Assembly: GCA_032433765.1 (NCBI GenBank)
Contig: JAVIAB010000101.1
Coordinates: 67,188,640-67,252,639, forward strand
Source of the DNA: Megaustenia siamemsis
Taxonomy: Eukaryota; Mollusca; Gastropoda; Stylommatophora; Ariophantidae
DNA length: 64,000 nt
Direction: 5' to 3'
Positions 6,687-58,275 of this stretch are shown in pieces; positions within the stretch are counted from its first letter, which is position 1, and every line of letters begins with the position of its first letter. A program made the translations under genes and the position numbers. The notes beneath the pieces were generated by a model, which was given only the letters and a program-made list of their open reading frames with translations, was not told the origin of the DNA and did no database searches.

Positions 6687-6716
6687 AATGCCTTGATTTT
6701 GAATAGTATCTACAAT
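6687..6716 (-). CDS. candidate micro-exon, 30 nt
   Basis: The acceptor TTTAATGACTTTCCAG and the donor ATT|GTAAGTAATATAAC enclose 30 nt reading IVDTIQNQGI in phase 0; phase 2 has TAG. The donor resembles that of the 13690 exon (GTAAGTAAC). The right target-site duplication of LINE-A (6660-6668) ends 12 bases beyond the donor, so the LINE inserted almost against this exon. Confidence 0.55.
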
Positions 6717-7009
6717 CTGGAAAGTCATTAAAATTTAGCTTTGAATTAGTGCATTTATACGTTCATCTTTATCTCGTTATTAACTTCATCTGATATGTAC
6801 ACATATGCACAAAAGCGTGTCACATGACCCTCGGCTATAAGCCGCCACTACTCTAGAGCGCATATAATAATCATTTCCAAGAAGATGCAACAGAACGTAG
6901 AATAGTGTCTCATTAAACAGCCTTGTCAAACCGCCGAATTGACCATTGCTGTTGCCTTAATTATTTTCCTTTTTCTATCATTTTAATACTCCACAAATAT
7001 TCCACAAAA

Positions 7010-7575
7010 AGCAGGTTTTCATGTTCTAAATACAGATTTGTTTGTCTTAAATGGGAATTTACATGTTCTAAATGCGGGTTTCCATGTTCTAAATGGAGGT
7101 TTCCATGTCTTAAATTGGAGTTTCCATGTTCTAAATGCGGATTGCCATGATCTAAATGCAGGTTTGTATGTTCTAAATGCTGGTTTTTATGATCTAAATG
7201 CAGGTTTACATGTCCTAAATACAGGTTTACATGTTCTAAAACTCAACAATATCCAGAGAAAGCATGAACGACAACCCTCTGTTATAAATTCAGGTTTCCA
7301 TGTTTTAAATGTGAGTTTCCATCAGGTATATATGTTCTAAATGCACATTTTCATGTTTTAAATGCAGATTTTCATGATCTAAATGCAGGGTTACATGTTA
7401 TAAATGCTGGTTTACATGTTCTAAATGCTTTTTTTTGCACATTCTAGAAGCAGGTTTACTGGCCTTAAATACTGATGTGCATGTTCTAAATGCAGGTTTA
7501 CATGCTCTAAATGCAGGTTTACATGCTCTAAATGCAGGTTTACATGTCCTAAATACAGGTTTACATGTTCTAAAA
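7010..7575. repeat. 21-bp minisatellite with a longer duplication
   Basis: The unit TTCTAAATGCAGGTTTACATG repeats irregularly. Because 21 is a multiple of three, it creates repetitive plus ORFs (HVLNAGL). A non-repeat segment beginning ACTCAACAATATCCAG occurs at about 7241 and again at about 7573, so a block of roughly 330 bp including part of the array has been duplicated. Confidence 0.9.
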
Positions 7576-7887
7576 CTCAACAATATCCAGGGAAAGCATG
7601 AACGACAACCCTCTCCACCGGTCACTTATGGCTCACACTTTATCATGACAGGGGGGTAGGGGTGTGGCTTGAGGGCGCGAAACCTGACTTTATCCTCGGG
7701 CGCTGAAATTCCTAGCTACGCCTCTGGTCAAACTCTAAACGTTGTTCTGACTCTTCTTGTAGGGTTGCCTCATAAATTGTTGATACCGTGAACTATATTT
7801 GGTCCGGAAATCATTATTATTATACAAGTTGTTTAATATTGCATCTTGATCAACACATATTTTAATGTTTCTCGGTCCACAGTTACT

Positions 7888-8255
7888 GAACTTGCAACGT
7901 TTACACTGATTGCTGGTTGGGTGTTGCTTATACACCCTTCTACTTGCAACTTTTACACTGATTATTGGCTGGGTGTTGCTTATACACCCTCCTACTTGCA
8001 ACGTTTACACTGATTGCTGGCTGGGTGTTGCTTATACACCCTCCTACTTGCAACTTTTACACTGATTGCTGGCTGGGTGTTGCTTATACACCCTCCTACT
8101 TGCAACGTTTACGCTGATTGCTTGCTGGGTGTTGCTTATACACCCTCCTACTTGCAACGTTTACATTGATTGCTGACTGGGTGTTACTTATACACCCTCC
8201 TACTTGCAAAGTTTACACTGATTGCTGGCTGGGTGTTACTTATAGTTTATGGTTT
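7888..8255. repeat. 52-bp minisatellite, left part (7 copies)
   Basis: The unit contains GCAACGTTTACACTGATTGC, TGGCTGGGTGTTGCTTATAC and ACCCTCCTACTT. It is interrupted by R1 at 8256 and resumes at 8924. Confidence 0.95.
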
Positions 8256-8923
8256 ATGGTTATGGAAGGCCCCGGTATCACTGCAAGCGAATTAAAATAA
8301 ATAATTGCTCAACCGCCCGTGCCAGTGGAATCATCCGAATTACTAACTCATCTCCCAAACAAAGAAAGGTAGCTGTAGTCCCCATCATAGCAGTCTCAGC
8401 ACACGCCAAAAGACATAAGGCGAAACCGCACTGAAGTTAACACAGCCAACTGTTCCCTGTCATACGATATCAGCATTCATCGTAAGCAATTGGAATATCG
8501 GAACATGATCAAAACGGATGAAAGACACAGCTCACGGTGTGCACAGAGCACCTAACTCAGTAGCTCCTGCAACAAGCCGGACGTGGAATATGAGGAAACT
8601 GCAACAAGGAACACTTTTCAGACGTAGCCTTCGCTGGTTCCTGTCGTCTATCCACCACATTGCCCGGAAGATCACGTCCTCCTGAAAATGATGATTGTCA
8701 TAGTATTTAAATGTATGGTGCTTGGTGATGTTAGGACATCGTGTTTGACTCCAACACCGAACATACAAAACACAGTTCGTCGTCAGATTATCCCCGTTGC
8801 ACACCAAAAAAACAGATCGCAAGATTAGCGCATGATCGGTCTTGGGACACACGATGAAACAATATGATGACGTAGCACGCACAATATGGCCGCGCCCATG
8901 TATTCATGATTCCTCTAGTAATT
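8256..8923 (-). mobile_element. R1 retroposon, longest copy, inside the 52-bp array
   Basis: About 670 bp of unique sequence splitting a 52-bp minisatellite. On the minus strand it ends GGCCTTCCATAACCATAAAC, a short-repeat tail. Flanks (TACTTATA on the left, TAATTATA on the right) look like an 8-bp target-site duplication with one mismatch. No convincing protein is encoded: the longest minus ORF, 8532-8882, is not conserved as a frame in other copies. It could be a non-autonomous retroposon or the 3' end of an unrecognised LINE. Confidence 0.75.
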
Positions 8924-9668
8924 ATACACCCTCCTATTTGCAACGTTTACACTGATTGTTGACTGGGTGTTACTTATACACCCTCCTACTTGCAACGTTT
9001 ACACTGATTGCTGGCTGGGTGTTACTTATACACCCTCCTACTTGCAACGTTTACACTGATTGTTGACTGGGTGTTACTTATACACCCTCCTACTTTCAAA
9101 GTTTACACTGATTGCTGGCTGGGTGTTACTTATACACCCTCCAACTTGCAACGTTTACACTGATTGCTGGCTGGGTGTAACTTATACATCCTCCTACTTG
9201 CAACTTTTACACTGATTGCTGGCTGGGTGCTGCTTATACACCCTCCTACTTGCAACGTTTACACTGATTGCTGGCTGGGTGCTACTTATACGCCCTCCTA
9301 CTTGCAACGTTTACGCTGATTGCTTGCTGGGTGTTGCTTATACACCCTCCTACTTGCAACGTTTACACTGATTGCTGGCTGGGTGCTGCTTATACACTCT
9401 CCTACTTGCAACGTTTACACTGATTGCTGGCTGGGTGTTACTTATACACCCTCCTACTTGCAACTTTTACACTGATTGCTGGCTGGGTGCTGCTTATACA
9501 CCCTCCTACTTGCAACGTTTACACTGATTGCTGGCTGGGTGCTACTTATACACCCTCCTACTTGCAACGTTTACACTGATTGCTGACTGGGTGTTACTTA
9601 TACACCCTCCTACTTGCAACGTTTACATTGATTGCTGGCTGGGTGCTGCTTATACACCCTCCTACTTG
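8924..9668. repeat. 52-bp minisatellite, right part (about 14 copies)
   Basis: Same unit as at 7888. Variants GTTAC, GCTGC and GCTAC alternate along the array. The last unit breaks off at TACTTGCTTCG. Confidence 0.95.
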
Positions 9669-10345: not shown

Positions 10346-10347
10346 AA

Positions 10348-12939: not shown

Positions 12940-13635
12940 TGACTAGCACAAAAGTTATTGAGTCATTTGCGGGTTATCATCATTGCACTCCGAACATGTC
13001 CAGATGTGTTCAGATCACCTTCTCAGCAAGTCCCACAGTGTCCAGCGATTGACCACTCCAGTTCTGTGTTGCTTGACAAGTCTTCTTACACGCCCACTAA
13101 GTTTCTCGTTTCTGTCTGTGCCCATCTTAATTCCCATCTCTTTCATCCGAAGAAATGGAGTGAACTCATGCCTGGCGAAGCCATGTACCCTTCCTACATA
13201 TCGGAGAGTATTGATGACATCCACCTGATCCGTTGGTTGACTGTCCTCAACGATAGTTCAGCTAGCCAACCTCTCCACTTTTTCATTTCCCAGTATTTTT
13301 GCATATCCAGGGGCGTAGACAAAGATGACGTATTTTTGACGTCTGCAATGACTCTAACAATTGCCTGCGTACAGAACCTGTAGCATCTTTTTTGTTTAAT
13401 CACAATCTCCGAATCACTGACAAAGCAGGATTGGGTGTAGTCTTGTGAATCTAACCAGAAGAGTGCCCTGATCACTGCCATCACCTCCATCTTCATGTTA
13501 CTCATGGTCATAACGTATGCACCACTAACTTCAATGACTATTCTGCCTGTCGAGCGTGGTGCAATTGTCCATGCTCTTCTTTGGTGTCGTATTGCTGATC
13601 CGTCTGTATAGAAGCCTATAAACACACACATCTGT
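12940..13635 (-). mobile_element. LINE-E with RNase H domain, 5'-truncated
   Basis: The minus ORF at 13194-13631 reads FYTDGSAIRHQRRAWTIA near its start, then MKMEVMAVIRALFWLDSQ and CFVSDSEIVI. These carry the first Asp, the Glu and the second Asp of an RNase H active site. The fourth acidic residue is not seen. The frame then shifts to NRWTLWDLLRR and the terminal ...CSECNDDN segment shared with other LINE-E pieces. RNase H of this form occurs in I/Nimb-type LINEs. No reverse transcriptase is left. Confidence 0.75.
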
Positions 13636-13689
13636 AAGTTTAATCATGTTATATTCACATCCACAACATTTAAGAAACAAGTTACTTAC

Positions 13690-13710
13690 AAATGTTGCTG
13701 ACGTCACAAT
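13690..13710 (-). CDS. candidate micro-exon, 21 nt
   Basis: The acceptor AAATGCTTCTACTTCAG and the donor TTT|GTAAGTAAC enclose 21 nt reading IVTSATF in phase 0; phase 2 has TGA. It lies about 60 bp upstream, in transcription order, of the RNase H fragment of LINE-E, which would be in the following intron. Confidence 0.55.
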
Positions 13711-13784
13711 CTGAAGTAGAAGCATTTAAATTTTACATGAGACAAATGTTCCTCGAATAAATAATCGGCCGGTAGCGATGAATC

Positions 13785-14665
13785 CCCCCTACTGTTTATT
13801 ACATACATGGACCATATATGCAAGTTAGCCAACACATCAGAGACAGCGGAGATCAACGAGCTTTTATTTGCAGACGATCAGGCACTAATACATGAAACAA
13901 TAGAAGACCTACAAGAACACTTAAACAAACTCAACATCTCAGGCACAAAATACAACATGAAAATCAACATCAACAAAACAGAAGTCATGAATGTCGCCAA
14001 AAATAAACAGAAAATCAACATAACTATAGAAGGCATACAACTAAAACAAGTAGAGGAATTCAAATACCTAGGAAGTCTAATGCCAAACGATAATTCCCAA
14101 ACAGCAGAGATAGAATCAAGATGCAACAAAGCTTATCAAATCATCGGACAGTTATCACCACTATTGTCCAACACTGAAATAACTCTGGAGGCAAAACGAG
14201 CACTATACAATACAACCTTCATCCCAACGTTGTGCTACCAATGCCAGACTTGGACCCTAGATGCAAGAACAATAAGAAAAATAAACTCAACAGAGATGAA
14301 ATGTGTTAGACGAATGACAGGAAACAGTCTGAGAGATAAGATCAGAAATGAAGAACTGAGAAAAAAGCTAGGAATAGCCCCCGCCATAGAATATATAATG
14401 AAACACAGGATAACATGGTTTGGCCACGTGACAAGGCAGCAAGAACAAAACACAACACAACGAACCTTCAACAAACTTTGTGAGAACACCAGACCCAAGG
14501 ACCGACCACGAATAAGATGGGTCGATGAAATATTAGAAGCACTAGGAAACATAACAGCAGCAGAGGCGAACAGAAGAGCGAAAGACCGCAAATTATATCT
14601 CCACTCGACGCTGAAAGGCAGATGAGGAAGGAAAGTAGAAAAAGAAGAGGAAGAAGCGATGAACA
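13785..14665 (+). mobile_element. LINE-D reverse transcriptase, C-terminal half, intact frame
   Basis: A clean 272-residue ORF (13807-14625). It begins just before the catalytic FADDQALIHE (residues 21-24 FADD), continues with KYLGSLMPND (about 87), the QTWTLDARTIRKINSTEMK block (147-165), ITWFGHVTRQ and RPKDRPRIRWVDEILEALGN, and ends in KGR. The usual fingers, motif A and motif B are missing, so it is a 5'-truncated copy. It is notably free of stops, so probably young. The tail is a GAAGAGGAAGAAG run. Confidence 0.85.
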
Positions 14666-14778
14666 TTTGATTTCTTCGTGATGTTTGTTTCTTTCAAACT
14701 ATAATGTATTTAGTTATAATAGTCAATTAAGCATTTTTATTAATGGGAAGAATAATGACTTTACGTTCTTTCATATGT

Positions 14779-15536
14779 CATCATCATCATGTACCCTGCC
14801 GGTTGCGTAGGCGATCATGTCCCTCCACAATCTTCTATCTACAGTGCATCGTATCAGTTCTGTTGTTGACTGTTTTCCATGCCATGACACCAAGCTATCC
14901 AGTATTTTCTCTCTTTGTCGTCCGCGATCTCCCTGTCCTTTTATTTTGCCAGTTGTAACCAAGTATTCCAACTTTCCTCTTCTCATGATGTGCCCGAAAA
15001 ATGTTGATTGTTTCTTTCTGATGTTTTTTAGGAGCTCCCTTTTTGTGTTGCCCTCTTTAAGAACTTCCTCATTGGTCTTTTTATCTGTCCAGGGAACTTT
15101 CAACATTCTTCTGAGAAATCCCATCTTTGTGGCCTCTAATTGTCTTTTCATTTGTTTGTCTACTGTCCATGATTTGCTTCCATAGGTCAGAATTGGTTCT
15201 ATATAGCACCGGTGAACTCTCTTTCTCATTTTTATTGACATAGATTTGTTGCATAAGATATTTTTCATTTTCTGAAATGCTATTTTGGTCTGAGCTATTA
15301 TGCTTTTTTATTTCTGTGGTGCATCTCCCATCTGATGTAATTATTGTGCCCAAGTATTTGAAACGTTGCACTTGTTTTAGATTTGTCTCGTTTATTTTTA
15401 TTCTGCATGGTGGTGATTATTGTTTCTTCGATATAACCATTACTTCTGTTTTCTTACTATTCAGACTGAGACCTTTTTTGTTGCTTTCTTCTACTATTAT
15501 GTCTATCATTTCTTGTAGTTCGTTCTCTGTCTCTGC
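14779..15536 (-). mobile_element. LINE-B, 5'-truncated, 758 bp
   Basis: The minus ORF at 14771-15268 reads MSIKMRKRVHRCYIEPILTY, ATKMGFLRRMLKVPWTDKKT, FFGHIMRRGKLEYLVTTGKI and TTELIRCTVDRRLWRDMIAY. An overlapping frame to 15371 has RFKYLGTIITSDGRCTTEIK. The tail is (GAT)n. A perfect 12-bp target-site duplication, TCTTTCATATGT, is at 14767-14778 and 15537-15548, so both ends are exact. Confidence 0.92.
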
Positions 15537-15662: not shown

Positions 15663-15698
15663 CTCTGGAGTTATCTCTGCCATTCGCTCTAGCTCTTT
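15663..15698 (-). CDS. candidate micro-exon, 36 nt
   Basis: The acceptor TTTGCATTTCTAG is short but clean. The donor is GAG|GTAATTTTG. The 36 nt reads KELERMAEITPE in phase 0; phase 2 has TAG. The ELER core matches RAELERI of the 34671 exon and the first 20 or so bases are alike, so this may be a duplicate that grew at its 3' end. It sits just outside the target-site duplication of the LINE-B copy at 14779-15536. Confidence 0.5.
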
Positions 15699-15843: not shown

Positions 15844-15878
<35 letters not shown>

Positions 15879-16669: not shown

Positions 16670-19600
16670 CGAATATGGGGTGTAGTTAGAGTCCTTAACG
16701 AAAGATGGTAGGAAGAACAACAAGTTGGATGTAGTTAGAGTCCTTAACGAAAGATGGTAGGAAGAACAACAAGTTGGATGTAGTTAGAGTCCTTAACGAA
16801 AGATGGTAGGAAGAACAACAAGTTGGATGTAGTTAGAGTCCTTAAAGAAAGATGGTAGAACAACAAGTTGGATGTAGTTAGAGTCCTTTTAACGAAAGAT
16901 GGTAGAACAACAAGTTGGATGTAGTTAGAGTCCTTAACGAAAGATGGTAGAACAACAAGTTGGATGTAGTTAGAGTCCTTAACGAAAGATGGTAGAGCAA
17001 CACGTTGGATGTAGTTAGAGTCCTAAACGAAAGATGGTAGAACAACAAGTTGGATGTAGTTAGAGTCCTTAACGAAAGATGGTAGAACAACAAGTTGGAT
17101 GTAGTTAGAGTCCTTAACGAAAGATGGTAGAACAACAAGTTGGATGTAGTTAGAATCCTTAACGAAAGATGGTAGAACAACAAGTTGGATGTAGTTAGAG
17201 TCCTTAACGAAAGATGGCAGAACAACAAGTTGGATGTAGTTAGAGTCCTTAACGAAAGATGGCAGAACAACAAGTTGGTTGTAGTTAGAGTCCTTAACGA
17301 AAGATGGTAGAACAACAAGTTGGATGTAGTTAGAATCCTTAACGAAAGATGGTAGAACAACAAGTTGGATGTAGTTAGAGTCCTTAACGAAAGATGGTAG
17401 AACAACAAGTTGGATGTAGTTAGAGTCCTTAACGAAAGATGGTAGAACAACAAGTTGGATGTAGTTAGACTCTTTAACGAAAGATGGTAGAACAACAAGT
17501 TGGATGCAGTTAGTGTCCTTTTAAAGAAAGATGGTAGAACAACACGCTGGATGTAGTTAGAGTCCTTAACGAAAGATGGTAGAACAACATGTTGGATGTA
17601 GTTAGTGTCCTTAACAAAAGATGGTAGAACAACATGTTGGATGTAGTTAGTGTCCTTTTAACGAAAGATGGTAGAACAACAAGTTGGATGTAGTTAGAGT
17701 CCTTTTACCGAAAGATGGTAGAACAACAAGTTGGATGTAGTTAGAGTCCTTAACGAAAGATGGTAGAACAACAAGTTGGATGTAGTTAGAGTCCTTAACG
17801 AAAGATGGTAGAACAACAAGTTGGATGTAGTTAGTGTCCTTAACGAAAGATGGTAGAACAACAAGCTGGATGTAGTTAGAGTCCTTAACGAAAGATGGTA
17901 GAACAACATGTTGGATGTAGTTAGTGTCCTTAACGAAAGATGGTAGAACAACAAGTTGGATGTAATTAGAGTCCTTTTAACGAAAGATGGTAGAACAACA
18001 AGTTGGATGTAGTTAGAGTCCTTAACGAAAGATGGTAGAACAACAAGTTGGATGTAGTTAGAGTCCTTTTAACGAAAGATGGTAGAACAACAAGTTGGAT
18101 GTAGTTAGAGTCCTTAACGAAAGATGGTAGAACAACAAGTTAGATGTAGTTAGAGTCCTTAACGAAAGATGGTAGAACAACAAGTTGGATGTAGTTAGAG
18201 TCCTTAACGAAAGATGGTAGGAAGAACAACAAGTTGGATGTAGTTAGAGTCCTTAACGAAAGATGGTAGGAAGAACAACAAGTTGGATGTAGTTAGAGTC
18301 CTTAACGAAAGATGGTAGAACAACAAGTTGGATGTAGTTAGAGTCCTTTTAACGAAAGATGGTAGAACAACAAGTTGGATGTAGTTAGAGTCCTTAACGA
18401 AAGATGGTAGAACAACAAGTTGGATGTAGTTAGAGTCCTTAACGAAAGATGGTAGAGCAACAAGTTGGATGTAGTTAGAGTCCTTAACGAAAGATGGTAG
18501 AACAACAAGTTGGATGTAGTTAGAGTCCTTAGCGAAAGATGGTAGAACAACAAGTTGGATGTAGTTAGAGTCCTTAACGAAAGATGGTAGAACAACAAGT
18601 TGGATGTAGTTAGAGTCCTTAACGAAAGATGGTAGAACAACAAGTTGGATGTAGTTAGAATCCTTAACGAAAGATGGCAGAACAACAAGTTGGATGTAGT
18701 TAGAGTCCTTAACGAAAGATAGCAGAACAACAAGTTGGATGTAGTTTGAGCCCTTAACGAAAGATGGCAGAACAACAAGTTGGATGTAGTTAGAGTCCTT
18801 AACGAAAGATGGTAGAACAACAAGTTGGATGTAGTTAGAGTCCTTAACGAAAGATGGTAGAACAACAAGTTGGATGTAGTTAGTGTCCTTTTAACGAAAG
18901 ATGGTAGAACAACAAGTTGGATGTAGTTAGTGTCCTTAACGAAAGATGGTAGAACAACATGTTGGATGTAGTTAGTGTCCTTAACGAAAGATGGTAGAAC
19001 AACATGTTGGATGTATTTAGTGTCCTTTTAACGAAAGATGGTAGAACAACAATTTGGATGTAGTTAGAGTCCTTTTAACGAAAGATGGTAGAACAACAAG
19101 TTGGATGTAGTTAGAGTCCTTAACAAAAGATGGTAGAACAACAAGTTGGATGTAGTTAGAGTCCTTAACGAAAGATGGTAGAACAACATGTTGGATGTAG
19201 TTAGTGTCCTTAACGAAAGATGGTAGAACAACAAGTTGGATGTATTTAGAGTCCTTAACGAAAGATGGTAAAACAAGTTGGATGTAGTTAGTGTCCTTAA
19301 CGAAAGATGGTAGAACAACAAGTTGGATGTAGTTAGAGTCCTTAACGAAAGATGGTAGAACAACATGTTGGATGTAGTTAGAGTCCTTAACGAAAGATGG
19401 TAGAACAACAAGTTGGATGTAGTTAGAGTCCTTTTAACGAAAGATGGTAGAACAACAAGTTGGATGTAGTTAGAGTCCTTAACGAAAGATGGTAGAACAA
19501 CAAGTTGGATGTAGTTAGAGTCCTTAACGAAAGATGGTAGAACATCAAGTTGGATGTAGTTAGAGTCCTTAACGAAAGATGGTAGAAAAAAAAGTTGGAT

Positions 19601-21749: not shown

Positions 21750-21770
21750 GTCAAGCTCTTTTTGAGTTTT
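21750..21770 (-). CDS. candidate micro-exon, 21 nt
   Basis: The acceptor CCTCTACTTTTATCACAG and the donor GAC|GTGAGTAACTGTTTC enclose 21 nt reading KTQKELD in phase 0; phase 1 ends in TGA. The exon end and intron start match the 45853 exon (CTTGAC|GTGAGTA), and both have a similar purine-rich stretch on the acceptor side. Confidence 0.56.
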
Positions 21771-27312: not shown

Positions 27313-27336
27313 TTGACGCTTTCGATCATCTCTCCA
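27313..27336 (-). CDS. candidate micro-exon, 24 nt
   Basis: The donor is CAA|GTGAGTTAATGTTTCC and the acceptor is TTTGTTTGACTCTTTAAAG. The 24 nt reads WRDDRKRQ in phase 0; phase 1 has TGA. Similar to the 31945 exon both in coding bases and in the first 16 bases of intron. An R1 retroposon inserted at 27519-27938 lies in the preceding intron. Confidence 0.42.
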
Positions 27337-28388: not shown

Positions 28389-28394
28389 TTTGCT

Positions 28395-31944: not shown

Positions 31945-31965
31945 TTTACGGATGCGATCCTTTCT
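31945..31965 (-). CDS. candidate micro-exon, 21 nt
   Basis: The donor is AAA|GTGAGTTACTATTTTC, nearly the same as at 33457. The acceptor TTTACTTATAAACTAAAATAG is only moderate. The 21 nt reads RKDRIRK in phase 0; phase 1 ends in TAA. The residues and bases resemble the end of the 27313 exon (RDDRKRQ), again pointing to exon duplication. Confidence 0.45.
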
Positions 31966-33322: not shown

Positions 33323-33456
33323 GGTATAAAGCAATAAAGTGATGTTTAATGTTAAAAAAAAATGAAAAAATGAAGACCGAAATACAAGACAAATCAATAT
33401 TCAAATTAATGTCTCTATTTCATTATCAAACCAACAGTAAGAAAATATTAACTCAC

Positions 33457-33477
33457 TTTATTACTATTTTCTTGTGA
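33457..33477 (-). CDS. candidate micro-exon, 21 nt
   Basis: The acceptor CATTTCTTTTCCAACAG and the donor AAA|GTGAGTTAATATTTTC enclose 21 nt reading SQENSNK in phase 0; phase 1 has TAG. It lies 1.2 kb downstream of the 34671 exon in transcription order, and the two share the opening of the following intron. A truncated LINE-B copy sits just beyond in that intron (32830-33322). Confidence 0.62.
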
Positions 33478-34670: not shown

Positions 34671-34691
34671 AATTCGCTCTAGTTCTGCCCT
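34671..34691 (-). CDS. candidate micro-exon, 21 nt
   Basis: The acceptor TTTTCTTGTTTTAATGCAG is textbook quality. The donor is ATT|GTGAGTTAATATTTTC. Exactly 21 nt, reading RAELERI in phase 0; phase 2 has a stop. The first 16 intron bases are identical to those after the exon at 33457. The coding residues resemble those of the 36-nt exon at 15663 (KELERM). This suggests exon duplication. Confidence 0.62.
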
Positions 34692-37272: not shown

Positions 37273-37290
37273 AGTTAGCTTTGGTAATTT
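37273..37290 (-). CDS. candidate micro-exon, 18 nt
   Basis: The acceptor TTTTATTTATTTTCAAATAG and the donor ACT|GTAAGCGAAC enclose 18 nt reading KLPKLT in phase 0. Phase 2 contains TAA. A smaller 6-nt reading using a nearer AG is possible but has a poor acceptor. Confidence 0.45.
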
Positions 37291-40722: not shown

Positions 40723-40743
40723 TAAATATTCTTCTAAGAGATC
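40723..40743 (-). CDS. candidate micro-exon, 21 nt
   Basis: This has one of the best splice contexts in the window: acceptor TTTTTTTCTTCTTTTAAAACAG region and donor TTA|GTAAGTCAGC. The 21 nt reads DLLEEYL in phase 0; phase 2 has a stop. The residues have the spacing of one amphipathic heptad. It lies in unique sequence between a 150-bp duplication and an array of GACGACATT units. Confidence 0.6.
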
Positions 40744-44810: not shown

Positions 44811-45226
<416 letters not shown>

Positions 45227-45852
45227 ATATCTATATATCTATCTATCTGACTGTCTGACGGTACGTATGTCTATCAATTTATCTATGTATCCATCTTTCC
45301 ACCTCTCCGCCTGTTCGTCAGTCCGTCTGTCTATCTATTGACCATTCGATTCGTGATCGGCTCTTAGGGCATTATACCCAGTTACCCTTTCTCTTTTTTC
45401 TATATTGTCTAACGATTGCTTTTACCTGTAGATGTTTCCTGACCATTTACTATTCTGCAGAGCGCTATTTTGAGGTAATCTATTCTCTGTATTTCACTGT
45501 CACGACGTGTAGAAGAAACAAGATATTGTCATTTTTGTTGGGACAAAACACATTGCGCCCACCTATTAAAAGGTGTCAAGTACGCATAACTATTTCCTAA
45601 CCCTAACCATGAACATATCTCTCACATACAACATATGTTGATTTCGCTGAATACTTATGATTCTATCTTTTAGGGGATGACATCAGTTATGCGTTGCATT
45701 TGTAATGTTACTCTATCATTTTTCTTTAAACGATAAATAGTAAAGCAAATTATCCATAGAGGCCTGATTTTGAAACAGACGAGACTCTGACTTAGAGAAG
45801 TTATAGTGGTAGGAAATGGTATCAAACATCAGATCTCTGAAAATGTACTCAC

Positions 45853-47200: not shown

Positions 47201-48451
<1,251 letters not shown>

Positions 48452-48838
48452 AAACAAATATGAGATCGTCGCAAAAAGGTTTACAGAATTTGCAGAAATT
48501 GTTAGTGGGAGAGGTTAAATAATTTCAAAATATATGGATAGTTTTACTTTCAGACAACAGATGGGCAAATAAATGAAGATTGCATAGCTCCAATAAAGGC
48601 AGCGTTTAAAACAATGAAAAAATATATACAATTGATTATATTAAAACAAATAGACGTATGAAAGGTTTTGTTTATTATTTAACTCATGCCATCTCTTTCT
48701 TTTAATGTAATAACTTCTTTGTAATTCGCCTATTTATAATTCTTCTAATATGATTAGTCATCTCAATCTTTGATCCAATAGTATTATCTTGATAAATAAA
48801 TTGGTCAATCGTGAATGTAGGAGCAAATACAGACTCAC

Positions 48839-48859
48839 ATAACGGCAACCAATTATTAT
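48839..48859 (-). CDS. candidate micro-exon, 21 nt
   Basis: The acceptor TTATTAATTTTTCTAAG and the donor TAT|GTGAGTCTG flank exactly 21 nt. It is open in phase 0 (IIIGCRY) and phase 1 (NNWLPL plus split codons). Phase 2 begins with TAA. Phase 1 suits the preceding 25-nt exon. It lies between the GATA array and a LINE-A fragment, outside any recognised repeat. Confidence 0.5.
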
Positions 48860-48899: not shown

Positions 48900-49630
48900 T
48901 AAATAAAGGACTAACATGTTTAATGCTTTAAATTTACTTAATGAAATAAAAATGGCAATCAAAAAGTCTAAAACTATGATCATAAACAAAGAAACTGACC
49001 AAAATCTACAAGTGGATATCAAAGTTGAAGGAATAGTCCTGGAGACAGTTCAGAGCTACAACTACTTTGATATACTATAACCAGTGATGGAAAATATGCA
49101 ACTGAAATAAACAAAAGAATAGGAATGGCAAAAGTAATTTTAATGTCACGAAAAAAATACAAACATCAAAACAAATAAAACCAGGGCTCTCTCTCCCTCT
49201 CTGCGATCAAGACTCAATCAGAGTAGGATTCCAGACTCTCTTATGAAGTCAGCTGTCTGTTTAAGTTAATCAATCGCCCCATATAGTTTCTCTTCCAGAA
49301 AAAATAGGAACAATTGAATGGAAAAAGACAGAAAACAAACGATGAAGTGCTAAAGAACTAACAATGAAAAGAGAACTGCTATTATACACAATTGAAACAG
49401 GATAAGTGAGATTGTTTGGGCATGTTAAAAGACACAGCTGCCTTCTAAAAGTAATCTTTGATGGGAAAATATAAGGTGAAAGAGGCAGAGGCAGACCAAC
49501 AGTAGCATCAACGAGTAACATCAAAGGCTGGACACGTCAACATATGACAACCTGCACCATCAAAGCAGGAGACAGAGCGGAATGGCGGTCCATGTTAGCC
49601 AACCTCAATGCGGAGACGGCACTCAATGGT
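48900..49630 (+). mobile_element. LINE-A, 5'-truncated, with a break
   Basis: 48900-49190 matches the KKTKTMIINKE...VETVQSYNY region through NKRIGMAK. About 100 bp of unrelated sequence follows (49195-49290). Then 49295-49630 covers RIGTIEWKKTENKR... to CMLANLNAETALNG. Degenerate. Confidence 0.75.
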
Positions 49631-49687
49631 TAAATGAACATGTTAAAGCAGAAAGTGGCAGTTGACAAGACACGATATAATACTCAC

Positions 49688-49712
49688 TTGAATGCAGGCA
49701 CATCAGATCTGA
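49688..49712 (-). CDS. candidate micro-exon, 25 nt
   Basis: The donor is CAA|GTGAGTATT and the acceptor is CCTTCTCTTAACATCAG. The first AG after the pyrimidine tract gives 25 nt, which in phase 0 reads SDLMCLHS and leaves in phase 1. A second AG four bases further in would give 21 nt, with an in-frame TGA in phase 0. The 25-nt form fits between its neighbours (68 nt exon leaving phase 0, 21 nt exon open in phase 1). Confidence 0.4.
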
Positions 49713-49754
49713 CTGATGTTAAGAGAAGGATACCGTTAGTGAACTGAAATATAT

Positions 49755-49800
49755 GTGTTTGTGTGTGTGTGTGTGTGTGAGTGTGTGTGCGCGCACGTGT
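49755..49800. repeat. (GT)n microsatellite
   Basis: TGTTTGTGTGTGTGTGTGTG run, continuing into GCGCGCACGTG. Confidence 0.92.
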
Positions 49801-49841
49801 GTGCGTGCGAGCTCCCGCGCGCACATCCGCGTTTCACTTAC

Positions 49842-49909
49842 CTTGCAAAAAAAGTAATTAAATATTGTAGAACATTTATTTGTTAAAATTGTAATATTAA
49901 CCGTAACGC
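49842..49909 (-). CDS. candidate exon, 68 nt, micro-exon gene
   Basis: The donor is AAG|GTAAGTG, a near-perfect consensus. The acceptor TTTTCTTTATCGAAG precedes the exon. Read in phase 1 (continuing exon 1) it is open: VTVNITILTNKC then STIFNYFFCK, and it leaves in phase 0. The same frame is open upstream to an ATG at 49937, giving MIIVIFFIEG before the exon. That makes an alternative first exon with a hydrophobic leader possible. Four acceptor-like TTTCTTCAAG copies lie just upstream in a 23-bp repeat. Which 5' boundary is used cannot be decided from sequence. Confidence 0.4.
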
Positions 49910-49935
49910 CTTCGATAAAGAAAATGACAATAATC

Positions 49936-50029
49936 ATTGCACTTGAAGAAAGCTGATCATTGCACTTGAAGAAAGCAGATCATTGCACTTGAAGAAAGCT
50001 GATCATTGCACTTGAAGAAAGCTGATCAT
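49936..50029. repeat. 23-bp tandem repeat, 4 copies
   Basis: TGATCATTGCACTTGAAGAA AGC four times, nearly identical. On the minus strand each unit has the acceptor-like TTTCTTCAAG. Confidence 0.93.
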
Positions 50030-50054
50030 AATTGCTGTCTTGAATATAATTTAC

Positions 50055-50081
50055 AAGTACTGATTTCCAAATAACAATATT
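50055..50081 (-). CDS. possible micro-exon, 27 nt (weak)
   Basis: The donor CTT|GTAAATTATATTC and the acceptor ...AAAACATTTGAG enclose 27 nt that is open in all three phases. The pyrimidine tract is weak. Recorded because of position between the candidate exons at 58110 and 49842. Confidence 0.13.
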
Positions 50082-50214
50082 CTCAAATGTTTTAATTTCT
50101 GTGAATGTTCTTTAATATAACAAAAGATTGTAAGGCACCATTTAAATAACAAAAATAACAAAATGGTCGTCGTTATGCACATGGGGTTTGGCTGTTCAAT
50201 ATGGGTAGGTTGAT

Positions 50215-50960
50215 GTTTATGTCATTATCATCAGATTCCATGCCTGCCGGCGTAGGTGATAATGCCTCTCCACAACTTTCAATCTCTACAGTTATGTATC
50301 TGCTGTTGACCTTCTGCCGAACCATTCTCTTAAGCTGTCTGGTATCTTTTCTCTTTGTTTCCAACTATATATATGTCCCACAATTTCCCCATTTCTCACA
50401 ATATATTCCACCGATGTCCGTATCATTATATGACCATAACATGAGTATTATTTCTTCCTAATATTGGAAATTTGCTTCCTTTTTGTTTTGACATCTTTCA
50501 GAACATATTCATTGCTCTTCTTAGCTTCCCATGGTATTCTCAAACATTCTTCTATGAAACATACATTTCTACAGCCTCCAGTCATATTCTTGTCTGTTGT
50601 CCTATTATCCATGATTCACACCCATCTATAAAGACTAGCTCTACATAATATTTAATAACTTTTTTTTCGTCTATAATTTGGTCAAAAATAGATTGTATGT
50701 TATCTTCCACATTTTTGTGGAAAACTGCTTTGCCTATGCCATTCTGCATCTCACCTCTGTTGTACATCTACAATCTCACCTCTGTTGTACATCTACCATC
50801 TCACCTCTGTTGTACATCTACAATCTCACCTCTGTTGTACATCTACAATCTCACCTCTGTTGTACATCTACCATCTCACCTCTGTTGTACATCTACCATC
50901 TGAGGTTAACATTGTTCCCAGATATCTAAATTCGTTTACCTGTTTTAATATTGATATTGA
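50215..50960 (-). mobile_element. LINE-C, 5'-truncated, carrying a 25-bp array
   Basis: Minus strand from FKYLGTMLTSDG near 50920, through KVIKYYVELVFIDGCESWII (50600-50660), to the (GAT)n tail near 50225. A tandem array is embedded at the CRM region. Confidence 0.82.
50751..50898. repeat. 25-bp tandem array inside LINE-C, 6 copies
   Basis: TCACCTCTGTTGTACATCTA CCATC, six times. A single copy of the same text is the normal LINE-C sequence at this place (compare 38362-38390), so the array arose by amplifying LINE sequence. Confidence 0.92.
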
Positions 50961-50983
50961 TATTGTAGAATATATTATATGTC

Positions 50984-51254
50984 GGGAGGTGCGATAACTC
51001 AGTGGTTAGTGAACTCGGCTTCGTAAGAGAAGAAGTCGGGTTCGATTCTGATAGACGGCTTCCAGGTTCACTCTGTCTTAAATGTGTACGGGTTTTTTTT
51101 TTTTTGTCTGGGAATATAAAGAGGCACGGGCGTAATACTGACCAAATTACACCACAAATAATGTGTCGAATATCTATAAAAAAAAAATCATCACTAACAC
51201 CATATTTCCTATACGTCACTTGGCGTGACGGGACTCTTTACATTTTTTTCCTAT
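50984..51254 (+). mobile_element. SINE S1, copy 5
   Basis: Plus-strand copy with GATAACTCAGTGG and GGGTTCGATTC boxes about 35 bases apart and the shared body blocks. The tail is CTCTTTACATTTTTTT. It lies just beyond the broken end of a LINE-C fragment. I cannot identify a target-site duplication. Confidence 0.82.
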
Positions 51255-51334
51255 TAAGAAAAGATGATAGACTTATGTCGGGCATGTATTTAAAAGAAAC
51301 GACGATATAATTACTAAGCAGTTCCCAAATAGGA

Positions 51335-51560
51335 AACATCAGATCAGAGAAAAAGAGGACGACCTCCAGAAACACTCTCAATGAAAACTCTAACAACAGA
51401 GGCAAGGTTGCAAGGCATAGACTTCCGCTCTATAATCAAACAGCGTTCCCAGAATAGAGACCATTGGATGGGGCAAGCCCTATTCTCCTTGTAACGAGGC
51501 TGGAATGATCCAGAACAAAGTGTCGTTGATGGGACCATTATCTAGTTGTAGAGATCGCTG
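51335..51560 (+). mobile_element. LINE-H C-terminal remnant
   Basis: Plus strand reads KRGRPPETLSMKTLTTEARL, FRSIIKQRSQNRDHWMGQAL, resembling the 'RGRP..TWR.T.E.E......W.......DR..W' end of LINE polyproteins. Stops follow. Confidence 0.5.
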
Positions 51561-51774
51561 ACTATGAGTCGTTGTTGAAGCAGTAATCTATAAGCAAAGT
51601 AAAGTGAATATTTCTGCAAGTCATTTCTACACACGTTAAATTGTTGTGGGAAGAGAATGTTTTCTTATTTATTATTGTTTAACCCGATATCAACCAGGTT
51701 GATAATCGTATCATAACCTCTGCTTAACCTATTTATCAGTCCTGATCTGACTGTCAATCTTTGTATCTCCTCAT

Positions 51775-52600
51775 TCATCATCATTGAGTGCTGTCTCCAC
51801 ATGGAAGGTTGGCTACCATGGAGCGCCATTCCACTTTGTCTCTTACTTTGATGCTGCATATTTTCATAGGCTGACTTGTCCATCTGTTGATGTTACTCGT
51901 CCATGTTAGTCTTGGTCTGCCTCTGCCTCGTTTACCTTGTATTTTCCCTTCTAATATTACTTTTAATAGGCTGTTGTGTCTTTTAACATGTCCCCCAAAA
52001 TTTTCTTTGTCTTGTTCTAATTATGTTTATTAGTTCAATTTTCAGCTTTAATTGTTTTAAAACTGCATCGTTTGTTTTATTTCCTTTCCAAAAATTCTAC
52101 ATATTCTTCTATAAATCCACATTTCAAAGGCTTCAATTTTCTGTCCTGTTTTCTCGTCTAAAGTCCATGTTTCTGAACCATAATGGAATATTGAGAAGAT
52201 GTCACATTTTTCAATTCTTAGTTTTAGTCCTGCTGTTATTTGTTTTAATGTTAGTATATTTGTCATGTCATTAAAATTACTTTTTGCCATACCTATTCTT
52301 TTGTTTATTTCAGTTTTACATGTTCCATCACTAATTATAGTATGTCCATGGTAGTTGTAGCTCTGAACTGTCTCCAGGTGTATTCCTTCAACTTATATAT
52401 TTTTTGTAGGTCTTGATAATTTTCTTTCTTTATGATAATAGTTTTAGTCTTTTTGATATACATATCTAATCCATATTTTTTTTTATTTCCGCATTTATTT
52501 CATTAATTATTTGTTGTAGATCTTATGATTTTCTGCTAGTAATCATCAGCATATCTTATGTTGATTATTTTACAATTAATGTCTCCTCATGAGTGTCTTT
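51775..52600 (-). mobile_element. LINE-A, 5'-truncated
   Basis: Tail at 51777, then NLRWGDST-like end, GKGRGRPRLTW, the IEAFEMWIYRRICRIFGKEI block, WTLDEKTGQKIEAFEMW and AKSNFNDMTNILTLKQI, back to the TVLL.EN region near 52550. Several frameshifts. Confidence 0.83.
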
Positions 52601-53582
52601 TTCCTGCCGTTTATATTTAATCGTGGCTCGTGACTACCTCACGCCTCCATCTGTGGTCCGTGCGTATTAATATTTATGATACACTGTATGGTAAAGATAC
52701 TTCAGCTGATTTACTCATTTACGACTTTCCAGGAAGATACAAATACATACGCTTCTTCTATTATACACATAGAAGAATTCTAAGTAGATGTTCCATACTA
52801 TTTATTTAAAAAACTTTTGTAGTTAGAAAATGAATATTAAATTCCAACGAACTCTCCGACTAGTGAGTCTTTATATTCCTTTGTTACGTTCATTAACAAC
52901 TAAAATGTGATTCAAATATGAATATTCACTTTAGTTAAACGTTTTCCGTTATGCGTGTCTCAAATTGAAACCACTTTCATCAAATATCAATTTCAAGAAT
53001 CAGGATAGTGTTCTATGGGCAGGTTTTTTTAAAAATTACTTATTGTTTCACAATATCTGAGATTAGAACTAAAAAAATCACTTTTAGATGAAAACAAAGA
53101 GCAGTGCATATAGTAACGTCAAGCTGCCTAAGTGTCTATATATCTTAAACAATCACCGAGCAACTAACACCTTTGAACAATTCATTTATTTATTGTTACT
53201 TATCTCAGTCATAATATGAAAGAAATATACACTATATAAGTAACGTGGCAATTGTTTACAGATTCATTTCTCAAACAATGCCTGACGCACTCTCGTTCAC
53301 ACACTAGAATATATGCACGATTCGTGATACGAAAAAATACCCTATTAAGATGATACATTTATCTTACTATATCAGTCCATGTAGAGTATTAACATATTCG
53401 CTTCGACATACTTTCTCCATACCTTATTCAATGTCTTGACCTTACCTATTTACTACAACTTGTTTCTGTCATCTAGATCTGTTCATATATGATATTTAAT
53501 TGTAACATATCGTTTCGATGTCTTAATCTGGTCTGCCCCATAATCAGAGTAACACAACAATAGTAATAGTAGAATTAAGACT
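52601..53582. other. no recognisable gene
   Basis: AT-rich unique sequence between two minus LINE-A copies. No repeat unit or convincing splice pair found. Confidence 0.45.
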
Positions 53583-54540
53583 CATCATCATCATCGTGTA
53601 CCCTCTCCGCAACGAAGGTTGACTACCATGGATCGCTATTCTACTCCGTTTCTTGCTTTGATGGAGCAAGCTGACATAGATTGACGTGTCCATCTTTTGA
53701 TGTTACTCGTCCATGTTAGTCTTGGTCTGCATCTACCTCTTTTGCCTTGTATTTTTCCTTCCAATATTACTTTTAGTAGGCTGTTGTGTCTTGTAACATG
53801 CCCAAAAAAATTAATTTGTCTTGTCTTGATTGTATTTAGTAGTTCTCTTTTTATTTTCAGTTGTTTTAAAACTTCATCGTTTGTTATCTTTTGTTTCCAT
53901 CCAATTCTACCTATTCTTCTATAAATCCACATTTCAAAGGCTTCAATTTTCTGTTCTGTTTTCTTGTCTAATGTCCATGTTTCTGCACCACACAGGAATA
54001 TTGAGAAGACGTAACATTTTGCCATTTTTAGTTTCAGCCCTGCTGATATTTGTTTTGTTGTTAGTATATTTTTCATGACATTAAAATTACGTTTTGCCAT
54101 ACCTATTCTTTTGTTTATTTCAGTTTTGCATTTTCCATCATTGGTTATATTATGTCCCAGGTAGTTGTAACTCTGGACTGTCTCCAGATGTATTCCCTCA
54201 ACTGTGATATTTAATTGTAGGTCTTGAGAATTTTCTTTGTTTATGATCATAGTTTTAGTCTTTTTGATATTCATATCTAGTCCATATTTTTTTGCTTATC
54301 ATGTGTATTACATTAAGTAATTGTAGATCTTTAGGATTTTCTGCTAGTAGAACAGTATCATTAGCATATCTTAGGTTATTGATTATCTTCCTATTAATGT
54401 TAAGGCCTGGCATCTCATTGATGTTTTTAAAGATTTGCTCAGAGTATAAATTGAACAATCTTGGTGATAGGATGTATCCTTGTCTTAATCCTCTTTTTTA
54501 TATCAATGGTTGTAGAGTTCTCTTTGTTAAATTTTTGGCA
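53583..54540 (-). mobile_element. LINE-A, 5'-truncated, largely open
   Basis: The minus ORF at 53636-54274 has 212 residues: KTKTMIINKENSQDLQLNIT, YNYLGHNITNDGKCKTEINK, WTLDKKTEQKIEAFEMWIYR, NFFGHVTRHNSLLKVILEGK and KRGRCRPRLTWTSNIKRW. A second frame to 54458 gives INNLRYANDTVLLAENPKD, with YAND in place of the catalytic YADD. Tail (GAT)n at 53583. Confidence 0.87.
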
Positions 54541-54544
54541 TTGA

Positions 54545-55078
54545 AGTGATCACAGACATATGCAATGAAATATACCGCACAGGATACATACCAAATGAAC
54601 TAACAACATCAACTTTTATAGAATTGCCTAAAAAGAATGGTGCAGTTGAATGCAGCGACTTTTGAACAATAAGCCTAATGAGCCAGGTAACCAAAATTTT
54701 ACTAAAAGTTATACAAGGAAGGATTCAGAATAAAATTAATAATGAATTAGATGAGCAGCAATTCGGATTCAAGAAAAACAGTGGGACAAAAGAAGCCATA
54801 TTCAGCATGAGGACATTGATTGAAAAGTACATAGAAGTAAACAAACCAATATATGCTTGCTTTATAGACTACGCCAAAGCTTTGATAGAATACACCATGA
54901 GCAACTTATAGACTGTCTAAAAGATATAAATCTGGATGACACAGACATACGACTGATATGTAATTTGTATTGGGAGCAAACAGCAATAATAAAATATAAC
55001 AAGGAGAACTCTACACCCATTTATATAAAAAGAGGATTAAGACAAGGTTGCATCCTATCACCAAGCTTGTTCACTTTA
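54545..55078 (+). mobile_element. LINE-A RT, left of nested LINE-B
   Basis: Plus strand: IPNELTTSTFIELPKKNGAV, ISLMSQVTKILLKVIQGRIQ, EQQFGFKKNSGTKEAIFSMR, then motif A (CFIDYAKA, frameshifted) and IKRGLRQGCILSPSLFT (motif B). It then breaks at the LINE-B insertion and resumes at 55648. It starts back to back with the minus LINE-A copy ending at 54540. Confidence 0.85.
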
Positions 55079-55647
55079 TCATCATCATCATGTGCCATAC
55101 CGGTTGGCGTAGGTGATCATTTCCCTCCACAATCTTCTATCTACAGGGCATCGTATCAGTTCTGTTGTTGACTGTTTTCCATGCAATGACACCAAGCTAT
55201 CCAGTATTTTCTCTCTTTGTCGCCCGCGATCTCTCTTTCATTTTATTTTGTCAGTTGTAACCAAGTATTCCAACTTTTCTCTTCTCATGATGTGCCCGAA
55301 AAATCTTGATTGCTTCTTTCTGATGTTTCTCAAGAGCTCCCTTTTTGTGTTGGACTCTTTGTGTTGGCCTCTTTTTAGCTGTCCACGGAACTTTCAACAT
55401 TCTTCTGAGAAATCCCATCTCTGTGGCCTCTAATCATCTTTTCATTTGTTTGTCTACTGTCCATGATTCGTTCCATAGGTCAGAATTGGTTCTATATAGC
55501 ACCGATGAACTCTCTTTCTCATTTTTATTGACATAGATTTGTTGCAGAAGATTTTTTTTCATTTTCTCAAATGCCATTTTGGCCTGAGCTATTCTGCTTT
55601 TTATTTCTGTGGTGCATATCCCATCTGATGTTATTATTATGCCCAAG
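55079..55647 (-). mobile_element. LINE-B, 569 bp, nested in LINE-A
   Basis: Minus strand from IITSDGICTTEIKSRIAQAK (near 55640) to the LINE-B terminus and (GAT)n at 55079. The target-site duplication is 11 bp with one mismatch (TGTTCACTTTA and TGTTCAATTTA) at 55068-55078 and 55648-55658. The flanks join into an uninterrupted LINE-A reading. Confidence 0.92.
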
Positions 55648-56300
55648 TGTTCAATTTATACACTGAGCAAATCTTTAAAAACATCACTGAGATGCCAGAT
55701 CTTAACATTAATGGGAAGATAATCAATAACCTAAGATATGCTGATGATACTGTTCTACTAGCAGAAAATCCTGAAGATCTACAACAATTGCTTAATGTAA
55801 TAAACATGACAAGCAAAAAATATGGACTAGATATGAATATAAAAAAAGACTAAAACTATGATCAGAAATATAGAAAATCCTCAAGACCTACAATAAAATA
55901 TCAAAGTTGAAGGAATACATTTAGAGACAGTCCAGAGCTACAACTACCTGGGACATACTATAACCAGTGATGGAAAATGTACAACTGAAATAAATAAAAG
56001 AATAGGAATGGCAAAAGGTAATTTCAATGCCATGTAATAAAAATATACTAACATCAAAACAAATAACACCATGGCTGAAACTAAGAATAGCAAAATGTTA
56101 CATCTTCTCATATTCCTGTTGTTAAAATTGTTTGGTCATGTTAAAAGACACAACAGTCTAATAAAAGTAATATTAGAAGGGAAAATACAAGGTAAAGGAG
56201 GCAGAGGCAGACCAAGACTAACATGGACGAGTAACATCAAAAGATGGACAAGTCAGCCTATGGCAATCTGCACCTTCAAAGCAAGAGATGGGAAAAGGAA
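55648..56300 (+). mobile_element. LINE-A RT, right of nested LINE-B
   Basis: Resumes with MFNLYTEQIFKNITEMPDLN and INNLRYADDTVLLAENPEDL (motif C), then YNYLGHTITSDGKCTTEINK, a deletion, and FGHVKRHNSLIKVILEGKIQ, RGRPRLTWTSNIKRW. The end of LINE-A is lost; a 42-bp array follows. Confidence 0.83.
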
Positions 56301-56309
56301 CGAGCAATC

Positions 56310-57045
56310 AATTAAAAGTATATGTCATGAGAGAAGGAAAGGAAATGCAGGTAAAAGTATATGAGGTGAGATAAGTAAGGTGAAGTCAGTTTTAAATACA
56401 TGTGGTGAGAGAAGGAAGGTGAAGTTAGTTAAAAATACATGTGGTGAAAGTATTAGACTGAATACAGTTAAATGTGTATGTGATGAGGGAAGGAAGATGA
56501 ACTCAGTTACAAGTATATGTGATAAGGAATGAAGGAAGATGAAGTCAGTTACAAGTATATGTGATAAGGAATGAAGGAAGTTGAAGTCAGTTACAAGTAT
56601 ATGTGATAAGGAATGAAGGAAGTTAAAGTCAGTTACAAGTATATGTGATAAGGAATGAAGGAAGTTAAAGTCAGTTACAAGTATATGTGATAAGGAATGA
56701 AGGAAGTTAAAGTCAGTTACAAGTATATGTGATAAGGAATGAAGGAAGTTAAAGTCAGTTACAAGTATATGTGATAAGGAATGAAGGAAGTTAAAGTCAG
56801 TTCAAAGTACATGTATATGTGGTGAGAGAATGAAGATTAAGGCAGCTAAAAAGTATATGTGGTGAGAGAAGGAATATGAAGTAAGTTCAAAGTATATGTG
56901 GTGAGAGAATGAATATGAAGTTAGTTCAAAGTATATGTGGTGAAAGAAGGAATATGAAGTAAGTTCAAAGTATATGTGGTGAGAGAAGGAATATGAAGTA
57001 AGTTCGAAGTATATGTGGTGAGAGAAGGGAGATTAAGGCAGCTAA
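56310..57045. repeat. 42-bp minisatellite, about 17 copies
   Basis: Unit GATAAGGAATGAAGGAAGTT, AAAGTCAGTTACAAGTATAT, GT. The middle seven copies are nearly identical; both edges drift to GGTGAGAGAAGGAATATGAA forms. Confidence 0.93.
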
Positions 57046-57239
57046 AAGCATCCTAGAGACAACTCTCAGTTTTGAAGATTAAAAGAAAATTGTGAAGATT
57101 TCATGAGAATACCATAACGACTGATAAGGTAACGGAAATAACGATACTAATGATGAAAGCACTCGAAACGTTCTATTGTTCTACCCTTCCCTTTAAACTA
57201 CATGAAACGGGGACTTCCGTTAATAGGGCGGACCATATT

Positions 57240-57648
57240 GCCACAGCAACTGCTGAGGCACTGTGTGAAAAGTTGTAATTCTTGAAAATATATATATTAT
57301 ACTCTTATATTCTAAGTCTGGCTTGCGCAGGGAGCTACTGAGTTTAGTGCTCTGCGTACAGCAAACCGTGTGTACTTTTTTAAAAAATCCATATCGTGTG
57401 TCGATATTCCGACTGTTTACGATGAATGATAATAACGTATGACTAAGGACAGATAGTTGCGTTCACTTTTGGTACATCTACGTCTTATGTCTGTTGGCGT
57501 GTACTGTAGCTCCTTTTGATGGGGACTGCAGCTGTCGTTCTTTATTTGAATTAATCAATGATATGTGATCTTAATTCGAATTATTCCACTGACACGCGCG
57601 GTTGAGAAATTATGAATTTTAAATTGTTGGCAGTGATACCTTGGTCTC
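57240..57648 (+). mobile_element. R1 retroposon, diverged
   Basis: Recognisable from CTGGCTTGCGCAGGGAGCTA through the GCAGTGATACC block near the 3' end, with many substitutions. It is the oldest-looking copy. Confidence 0.62.
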
Positions 57649-57654
57649 CAACTC

Positions 57655-58088
57655 ATTATCAATAAGTACCATTCCTGCAGGCGCAGGTGATCATGTCTCT
57701 CCACAACTTCCGATCACGACAGTTATTTATCATTGCTGTATTTGACCTTCAGTAAAGTCATTCTCTATCTGGTATATTTTCTCTTTCCTTCACTGTATCT
57801 TTTCGTCCCTCAATTTTACAAATTGTCACCAAATTTGGCAGATGTTCCCTACTCATTGCATAGGTAATAAATGATGATTGCCTCTTCATTATTTTGGAAA
57901 TTAGCTCTCTTTTGTGCACTTGCTTCTTTCAGAACGTTGTCATTACCCTTCTTAGGTGATCATGGCATTCCCAAAATTCTTCTGTAAAACCACGTTTCTA
58001 CAACCTCCAGTGATTTTCTTGTCTGCTGTATTATTGTTCATGATTCACATCCATATTTTAAGACTGACTCTAATAACATTTAACAGCA
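57655..58088 (-). mobile_element. LINE-C 3' remnant, in the intron after exon 1
   Basis: From GCAGGCGCAGGTGATCATGT (tail side) to TTAAGACTGACTCTAATAAC (the CYVEP region). It ends about 20 bp from the donor of the signal-peptide exon. Confidence 0.75.
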
Positions 58089-58109
58089 AAACACATTTAA
58101 CATACTTAC

Positions 58110-58275
58110 TTTCTAGTTTTTGACTATCTGATGTCTGCTTGCTATCAGAGTCGATATTTCTTCTATGATGAACATTCGCAGCAGACTCGTATGGATCAAA
58201 CATAGAGTTAGATAGAGTCAGTGCGATGGTGCAGCTTGCAAATATACATCCGGATATCTGTGTTAGTCTCATCAT
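58110..58275 (-). CDS. candidate signal-peptide exon of a micro-exon gene
   Basis: Candidate first coding exon. From the ATG it encodes 55 codons plus one base. The start, MMRLTQISGCIFASCTIALT, reads as a signal peptide: one Arg, then a hydrophobic core, then small residues (LSNS) before an acidic, Ser-rich stretch with a dibasic RR near residue 39, as in secreted precursors. The open frame runs into a strong donor, GAAA|GTAAGTATG, at 58109. Beyond the donor the sequence is intron and then LINE-C (57655-58088), so the last residues of the naive ORF are not genuine. The exon ends in phase 1. No homologue is recognised. It could be a chance ORF; the support is the coincidence of signal peptide, donor and the downstream exon series. 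Confidence 0.45.

Follow-up and report, generated by a model that had tools for sequence, protein, structure and literature searches.

A putative minus-strand gene with tandemly duplicated, symmetric micro-exons in a repeat-rich 64-kb window

Structure of the locus

The 64-kb stretch of DNA analysed here (the window, whose positions are used throughout) carries on its minus strand a series of very short exon-like stretches, eleven of which had been listed by an initial annotation as micro-exons of a single gene. Seven of them, from 40743 down to 21750, are alike beyond the splice consensus, lie in one orientation and have kept AG and GT as well as a frame that is open in phase 0, at lengths that are multiples of three. 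Judged from sequence, they probably belong to a protein-coding gene with tandemly duplicated, symmetric phase-0 micro-exons in a layout like that of micro-exon genes (MEGs). The seven core units, named below by the first base of the exon on the minus strand, are given with the E-value at which each was recovered by a profile from which it had been left out:

40723..40743, minus strand: core micro-exon DLLEEYL, 21 nt; acceptor score 11.9, donor score 5.0; best untrained match, E = 2.8
37273..37290, minus strand: core micro-exon KLPKLT, 18 nt; acceptor 7.8, donor 5.6; E = 0.0017
34671..34691, minus strand: core micro-exon RAELERI, 21 nt; E = 1e-4
33457..33477, minus strand: core micro-exon SQENSNK, 21 nt; E = 0.0033; upstream flank in common with the 34691 unit
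31945..31965, minus strand: core micro-exon RKDRIRK, 21 nt; acceptor 1.0, donor 8.3; E = 1.4e-4
27313..27336, minus strand: core micro-exon WRDDRKRQ, 24 nt; E = 6e-5
21750..21770, minus strand: core micro-exon KTQKELD, 21 nt; E = 1.5e-5

An AG acceptor and a GT donor were present at all eleven listed stretches, as had been claimed, and their lengths, ordered from 48859, are 21, 21, 18, 21, 21, 21, 24, 21, 36, 21 and 30 nt, which bears out the reported predominance of 21 nt (seven of eleven). Symmetry and openness in phase 0, previously stated for ten stretches, extend to all eleven. Blocking of the remaining phases was likewise confirmed: one of the two frames is closed in 40743, 37290 and 34691, and three further core exons (33477, 27336, 21770) block the second. 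Donors of the GTGAGT/GTAAGT type had been described throughout; GTRAGT is found at nine of eleven, while 37272 reads GTAAGC and 15662 GTAATT. Of the acceptors, described as pyrimidine-rich, that of 40743 scores 11.9 and that of 31965 a weak 1.0 according to a generic splice matrix, which was set up after the sites had been seen and with which both strands were scored. At donor 37272 a rival exon of 53 nt has an acceptor of 8.3, slightly above the 7.8 of the 18-nt option. By coordinates, the core gaps measure 1.2 to 5.5 kb, and each outer member is separated from the core by about 8 kb.

Likeness among the core units

A box of approximately TAATATTTTCT after the donor is common to the seven core sites (donors 40722, 37272, 34670, 33456, 31944, 27312 and 21749). 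From +7 to +20 of the donor flank their mean pairwise identity amounts to 8.48 of 14, as compared to 3.70 (standard deviation 0.40, maximum 5.86) in 20,000 random sets of seven drawn from 385 other donor-like sites, a test which is partly post hoc, because the core was picked after the flanks had been seen side by side. When profiles were built with one unit omitted, the omitted unit ranked directly behind the six trained ones in seven of seven cases (both strands of the window searched), with E-values from 0.0033 to 1.5e-5 in six of them; the profile of all seven units found no further place below E = 5.3 on either strand. A pattern derived from the box, with one mismatch allowed, gave ten matches, nine of them on the minus strand, against a shuffle mean of 3.8, and as many were reached in one of 100 shuffles. 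With the splice signals cut away, the flanks of nine sites (the core, 48838 and 13689) were compared, and 11 of 72 comparisons attained a level reached by at most one of 100 shuffles, as against 12 of 400 between controls and 14 of 400 between core and controls.

The 31965 unit finds the 27336 unit with nhmmer at E = 5.4e-8 over about 310 nt (reverse search 2.4e-5 over about 180 nt), and exon 31965 agrees at 15 of 21 positions with the final 21 bases of exon 27336. Such likeness points to duplicated units, or at least to sites with one common splicing signal, and both favour real exons. The donor box of exon 33457-33477 (33437-33456) is nearly its own reverse complement, so that a donor-like site is found on the plus strand as well.

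The 21-nt length was compared with simulation by calling short exons of 12-45 nt in the window and in 60 third-order Markov sequences. On the minus strand, calls of exactly 21 nt made up 7 of 60 at a score of at least 10 (simulated mean 2.2, maximum 9), 5 of 28 at 12 (1.1, maximum 5), 5 of 9 at 14 (0.3, maximum 2) and 4 of 5 at 16 (0.1, maximum 1), all four of the latter being core exons. On the plus strand, none of the 15 calls at score 14 had this length. The fifth 21-nt call at score 14 (49708-49688) was absent from the earlier list and is closed in phase 0; in 200 simulations at this score the top count for any single length was 4, reached in seven. With 49708-49688 set aside and a count of 4 reached in 7 of 200 simulations, the excess at score 14 is modest.

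Outer and doubtful stretches

The four remaining stretches differ in their standing:

48839..48859, minus strand: probable micro-exon IIIGCRY, 21 nt, by donor box likeness
15663..15698, minus strand: doubtful exon KELERMAEITPE, 36 nt; lacks the donor box; 15-nt match to exon 34691
13690..13710, minus strand: probable micro-exon IVTSATF, 21 nt, by donor box likeness
6687..6716, minus strand: unsupported exon, 30 nt; lacks the donor box; beside a long interspersed nuclear element (LINE)

Neither 48859-48839 nor 13710-13690 had a part in building the box, and their likeness to it was reached by 6 and 3 of the 385 other donors, respectively, each itself counted. Among 289 short-exon pairs both have a box score of 6.43, a value which is also found at two pairs within LINE copies (6607, minus strand, 22 nt; 54687, plus strand, 31 nt), and lower values, 6.17 and 6.0, were obtained for two core sites once these had been left out of their own scoring; the box score of the outer two is thus support and not proof. 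A minus-strand frame at 13194-13643, which starts at 13643, downstream of 13710-13690, resembles a LINE RNase H by eye (YTDGSA).

A LINE match follows the stretch 15698-15663 at a distance of 126-145 bases, and the 15-nt match of this stretch to exon 34691 (93%, same frame) is weak at E = 0.5. As a member of the array 6716-6687 was ruled out, for it lacks the box and a LINE match begins only 27 bases further on, at 6659. Of the minus-strand micro-exon gene that had been proposed, the part from 40743 to 21750 is fairly well supported, and 48859 and 13710 are suggested as members, whereas the claimed reach to 6687 was not supported; the mutual likeness of the units is evidence which the initial annotation had not cited.

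Candidate start of the gene

A signal-peptide-like first exon had been placed upstream of the array. A candidate exon of this kind with a good donor is present, and it could join the array only by way of a second one which had not been listed:

58110..58275, minus strand: signal-peptide-like candidate for the first exon, with a good donor and an end in phase 1
49842..49909, minus strand: candidate for a bridging exon of 68 nt, with an entry phase of 1 and an exit phase of 0; score 19.7, donor 12.3

The first opens with ATG and has a donor score of 8.5; a LINE starts at 58083. A direct join to the micro-exons was ruled out by phase (1 versus 0) and by eight stops. If the 68-nt stretch is inserted, the chain is open from the ATG through nine micro-exons and comprises 141 residues, 63 of which stem from micro-exons. 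This stretch was the best of seven bridge candidates, and when 300 stretches of 9,250 bases were simulated, 5 of them held an equal one; it is plausible that it would reconcile the frames of signal exon and micro-exons. The link between signal exon and array is to be taken as a hypothesis, since both pieces were sought, and the thresholds set, after the fact.

The locus could accordingly be imagined to encode a secreted MEG-like protein, composed of the signal exon 58275-58110, the bridge 49909-49842 and variably skipped micro-exons. The open chain and the scarcity of such bridges in simulation speak for this reading, as does the fact that the signal-like exon is the sole one on either strand of the window, by criteria set after it had been seen. 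Against it stand the occurrence of signal-like exons by chance in 10 of 40 simulated strands, the choice of pieces and thresholds after the fact, and a chain with no known stop-bearing last exon, and on balance we regard it as somewhat unlikely. As an alternative last exon, the repeat open reading frame 28521-27832 (minus strand), which lies inside the array and holds ten near-identical 45-nt units (NNAPQGTVTKIMLNG), was left out, because its in-phase acceptor at 28392 is weak (3.1) and units of 45 nt are open by their period.

Weighing the gene interpretation

A number of observations count against a gene with duplicated micro-exons. The acceptor of exon 31965 is weak, recovery of the 40743 unit reached no better than E = 2.8 (4.6 for the next non-core place), and exon sequences are little alike, the pair 31965/27336 excepted. 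Box scores with the own site omitted put 21749 and 40722 below 48838, 13689, 6607, 54687 and 55109. The leave-one-out and cut-flank tests use the same core sites, chosen post hoc, and the flank controls excluded listed repeats while the nine sites did not; the flanks of 34691 and 33477 hold a common 23-nt repeat, and 13710 is near the LINE frame. Finally, a 48-nt part of the 34691 unit, located about its donor, has a match on the plus strand (34105-34152, 77%, E = 0.002).

The last match would also follow from a repeat origin, by which a non-coding repeat, dispersed or in tandem, would have given rise to the units and chanced to hold AG and GT, without any gene. The window is rich in minisatellites and LINE fragments, and for some units the distal flanks have matches elsewhere in it. 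On the other hand, the seven-unit profile detected no additional copy below E = 5.3 on either strand (at this value it resembles the plus-strand stretch 34105-34166, which may be a stray inverted piece of a unit), in all seven units both splice sites are retained, the length is a multiple of three and the frame is open, and none of the core exons itself matched a LINE or a minisatellite. We consider a mere repeat distinctly improbable.

It could further be argued that AG..GT pairs of convenient length were picked by eye from 64 kb, which would agree with the total of short-exon calls: at score 12 there were 28, compared to a simulated mean of 35.2 and hence not above chance, and calls that are both symmetric and open numbered 11 (mean 7.6, maximum 16), so that counts of exon-like pairs alone would not make the case. 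The comparison with simulated sequence came out in two parts, the 21-nt calls exceeding the simulated maximum at scores 14 and 16 and the total and symmetric-open counts staying within chance. Chance holds for 6716-6687 and perhaps for 15698-15663, whereas the common length and common flanks speak against it; for the core seven it appears unlikely, and as an account of the whole we give it very little credence. The plus-strand match together with the unlisted fifth 21-nt call nevertheless lowers confidence in duplicated micro-exons of a gene and raises it in the repeat and chance explanations.

Searches for relatives weigh against such a gene as well. Pfam gave no family for three peptides, and nine PDB matches (E from 0.023 to 4.2) were taken for chance. 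A protein search with the signal exon and the micro-exons, 15698-15663 included and the 68-nt exon left out, returned seven candidates, none at E <= 10; it weighs proteins of about 72-228 residues, in a database with few named animal proteins, and the null result says little for this reason.

Supposing that the exons are real, they might instead belong to an ordinary non-secreted gene (e.g., of muscle or neurons) and encode a variable charged linker, the signal exon being part of another gene or of none. Across the seven core exons 27 of 49 residues are K, R, D or E, and the signal exon is out of phase with the micro-exons, both of which suit this explanation; no recognisable relative was found for it, although the queries were fragments, the search weighed proteins of about 72-228 residues and the database is seemingly poor in molluscs. 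It is considered possible, with the balance leaning against it.

Proposed mechanism

For the duplicated micro-exons of a minus-strand gene the following course is proposed. The duplication unit would have been one micro-exon with its flanking intron, copied repeatedly in tandem, and a single mRNA would be spliced from the micro-exons, any of which would add or take away six to eight residues, mostly charged ones, and leave the frame intact. The U-rich box after the donor might help the splicing machinery to recognise exons that are too short for ordinary exon definition; the position after the donor is where factors that recruit U1 to weak donors, such as TIA-1, bind. LINEs and minisatellites may later have stretched the introns, and the gene may begin with the signal-peptide exon and the 68-nt exon, which is the less certain part. 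In its most specific form, the locus would be a molluscan gene for a secreted protein that became MEG-like independently, in which a heptapeptide micro-exon and its intronic enhancer were recopied to yield a charged tail of interchangeable seven-residue cassettes; this version we rate as unlikely.

Comparison with known systems

Schistosome MEGs are described with short symmetric exons of 6-36 bp over about 80% of the coding region (PMC5825161), and with introns of 0.1-5 kb, transposable elements nearby and a majority exon size of 15 bp (PMC10526429). Further marks of MEGs are a signal peptide, with a product that is secreted or anchored in the membrane, and protein variants that arise through splicing of the central exons. 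The locus resembles them in its run of short symmetric exons, here seven core and two probable ones of 18-24 nt predicted from the DNA, and in the transposable elements near it; a signal peptide, encoded by the candidate first exon, would be a possible further parallel. Unlike in MEGs, the exons are mostly 21 nt long (versus 15 bp in PMC10526429), seven of them look like mutual copies and have a donor box in common, lengths above 5 kb occur at one core gap out of six (5.5 kb) and at the two outer gaps (about 8 kb), and the host is probably not a flatworm. Going by these sequence features, the locus is called MEG-like and not a MEG.

Known micro-exons that depend on eMIC (SRRM3/4) are, to our knowledge, single exons across many genes and not a copy family within one. 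Their size range in neurons, 3-27 nt (PMC7935315), accommodates the core micro-exons here, whereas the UGC motifs near the 3' splice site and the weak 5' splice site described for the fly (PMC8797185) differ from an element after the donor. Aphid bicycle genes also possess many micro-exons of one common phase, and their gene structure outlasts sequence (PMC9168663); according to the same paper, internal exons are almost all in phase 2, whereas the only common open phase here is 0. A bicycle gene was ruled out by phase, each non-0 frame being closed in three of the seven core exons. Tandem duplicated exons are similar in that neighbouring exons are copies, yet known ones are reported to be exchanged one for another (PMC9741552), whereas at least seven tiny symmetric copies could serve together here.

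If the interpretation is true, the locus shows how a micro-exon gene outside flatworms and aphids was born, namely by tandem duplication of an exon together with the flank that enhances its splicing; the box on the donor side would explain, in a testable way, the recognition of exons whose shortness defeats exon definition, and a protein would be grown or varied by about seven amino acids at a time; the locus would then mark a class of genes which standard annotation of genomes rich in transposable elements could miss. Among the matches listed in open-licence literature no micro-exon gene in a mollusc was found, which shows such an absence weakly.

Repeats and surroundings

Many broken LINE copies in both directions occupy the window, among others at 5407-6659, 13765-15536, 24605-25710, 37955-38411 and, in parts, 48946-62329. 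A LINE protein search gave 18 matches, the top one with 77% identity on a 785-base contig; three carry an organism name, in each case the mollusc Elysia marginata (46-50% identity). Support for the mollusc host that had been suggested comes from this one LINE protein. A scan of viral contigs for relatives of the LINEs gave six pattern matches, none of which was confirmed. Neither Rfam, at its gathering thresholds, nor ARAGORN found anything in the window. The longest of many minisatellites, at 16681-19916, has a 45-nt unit in 71 copies, and two tetranucleotide arrays, of CTAT and AGAT, at 44811-45248 and 48150-48452, which lie some 3 kb from each other, make up a large inverted repeat.

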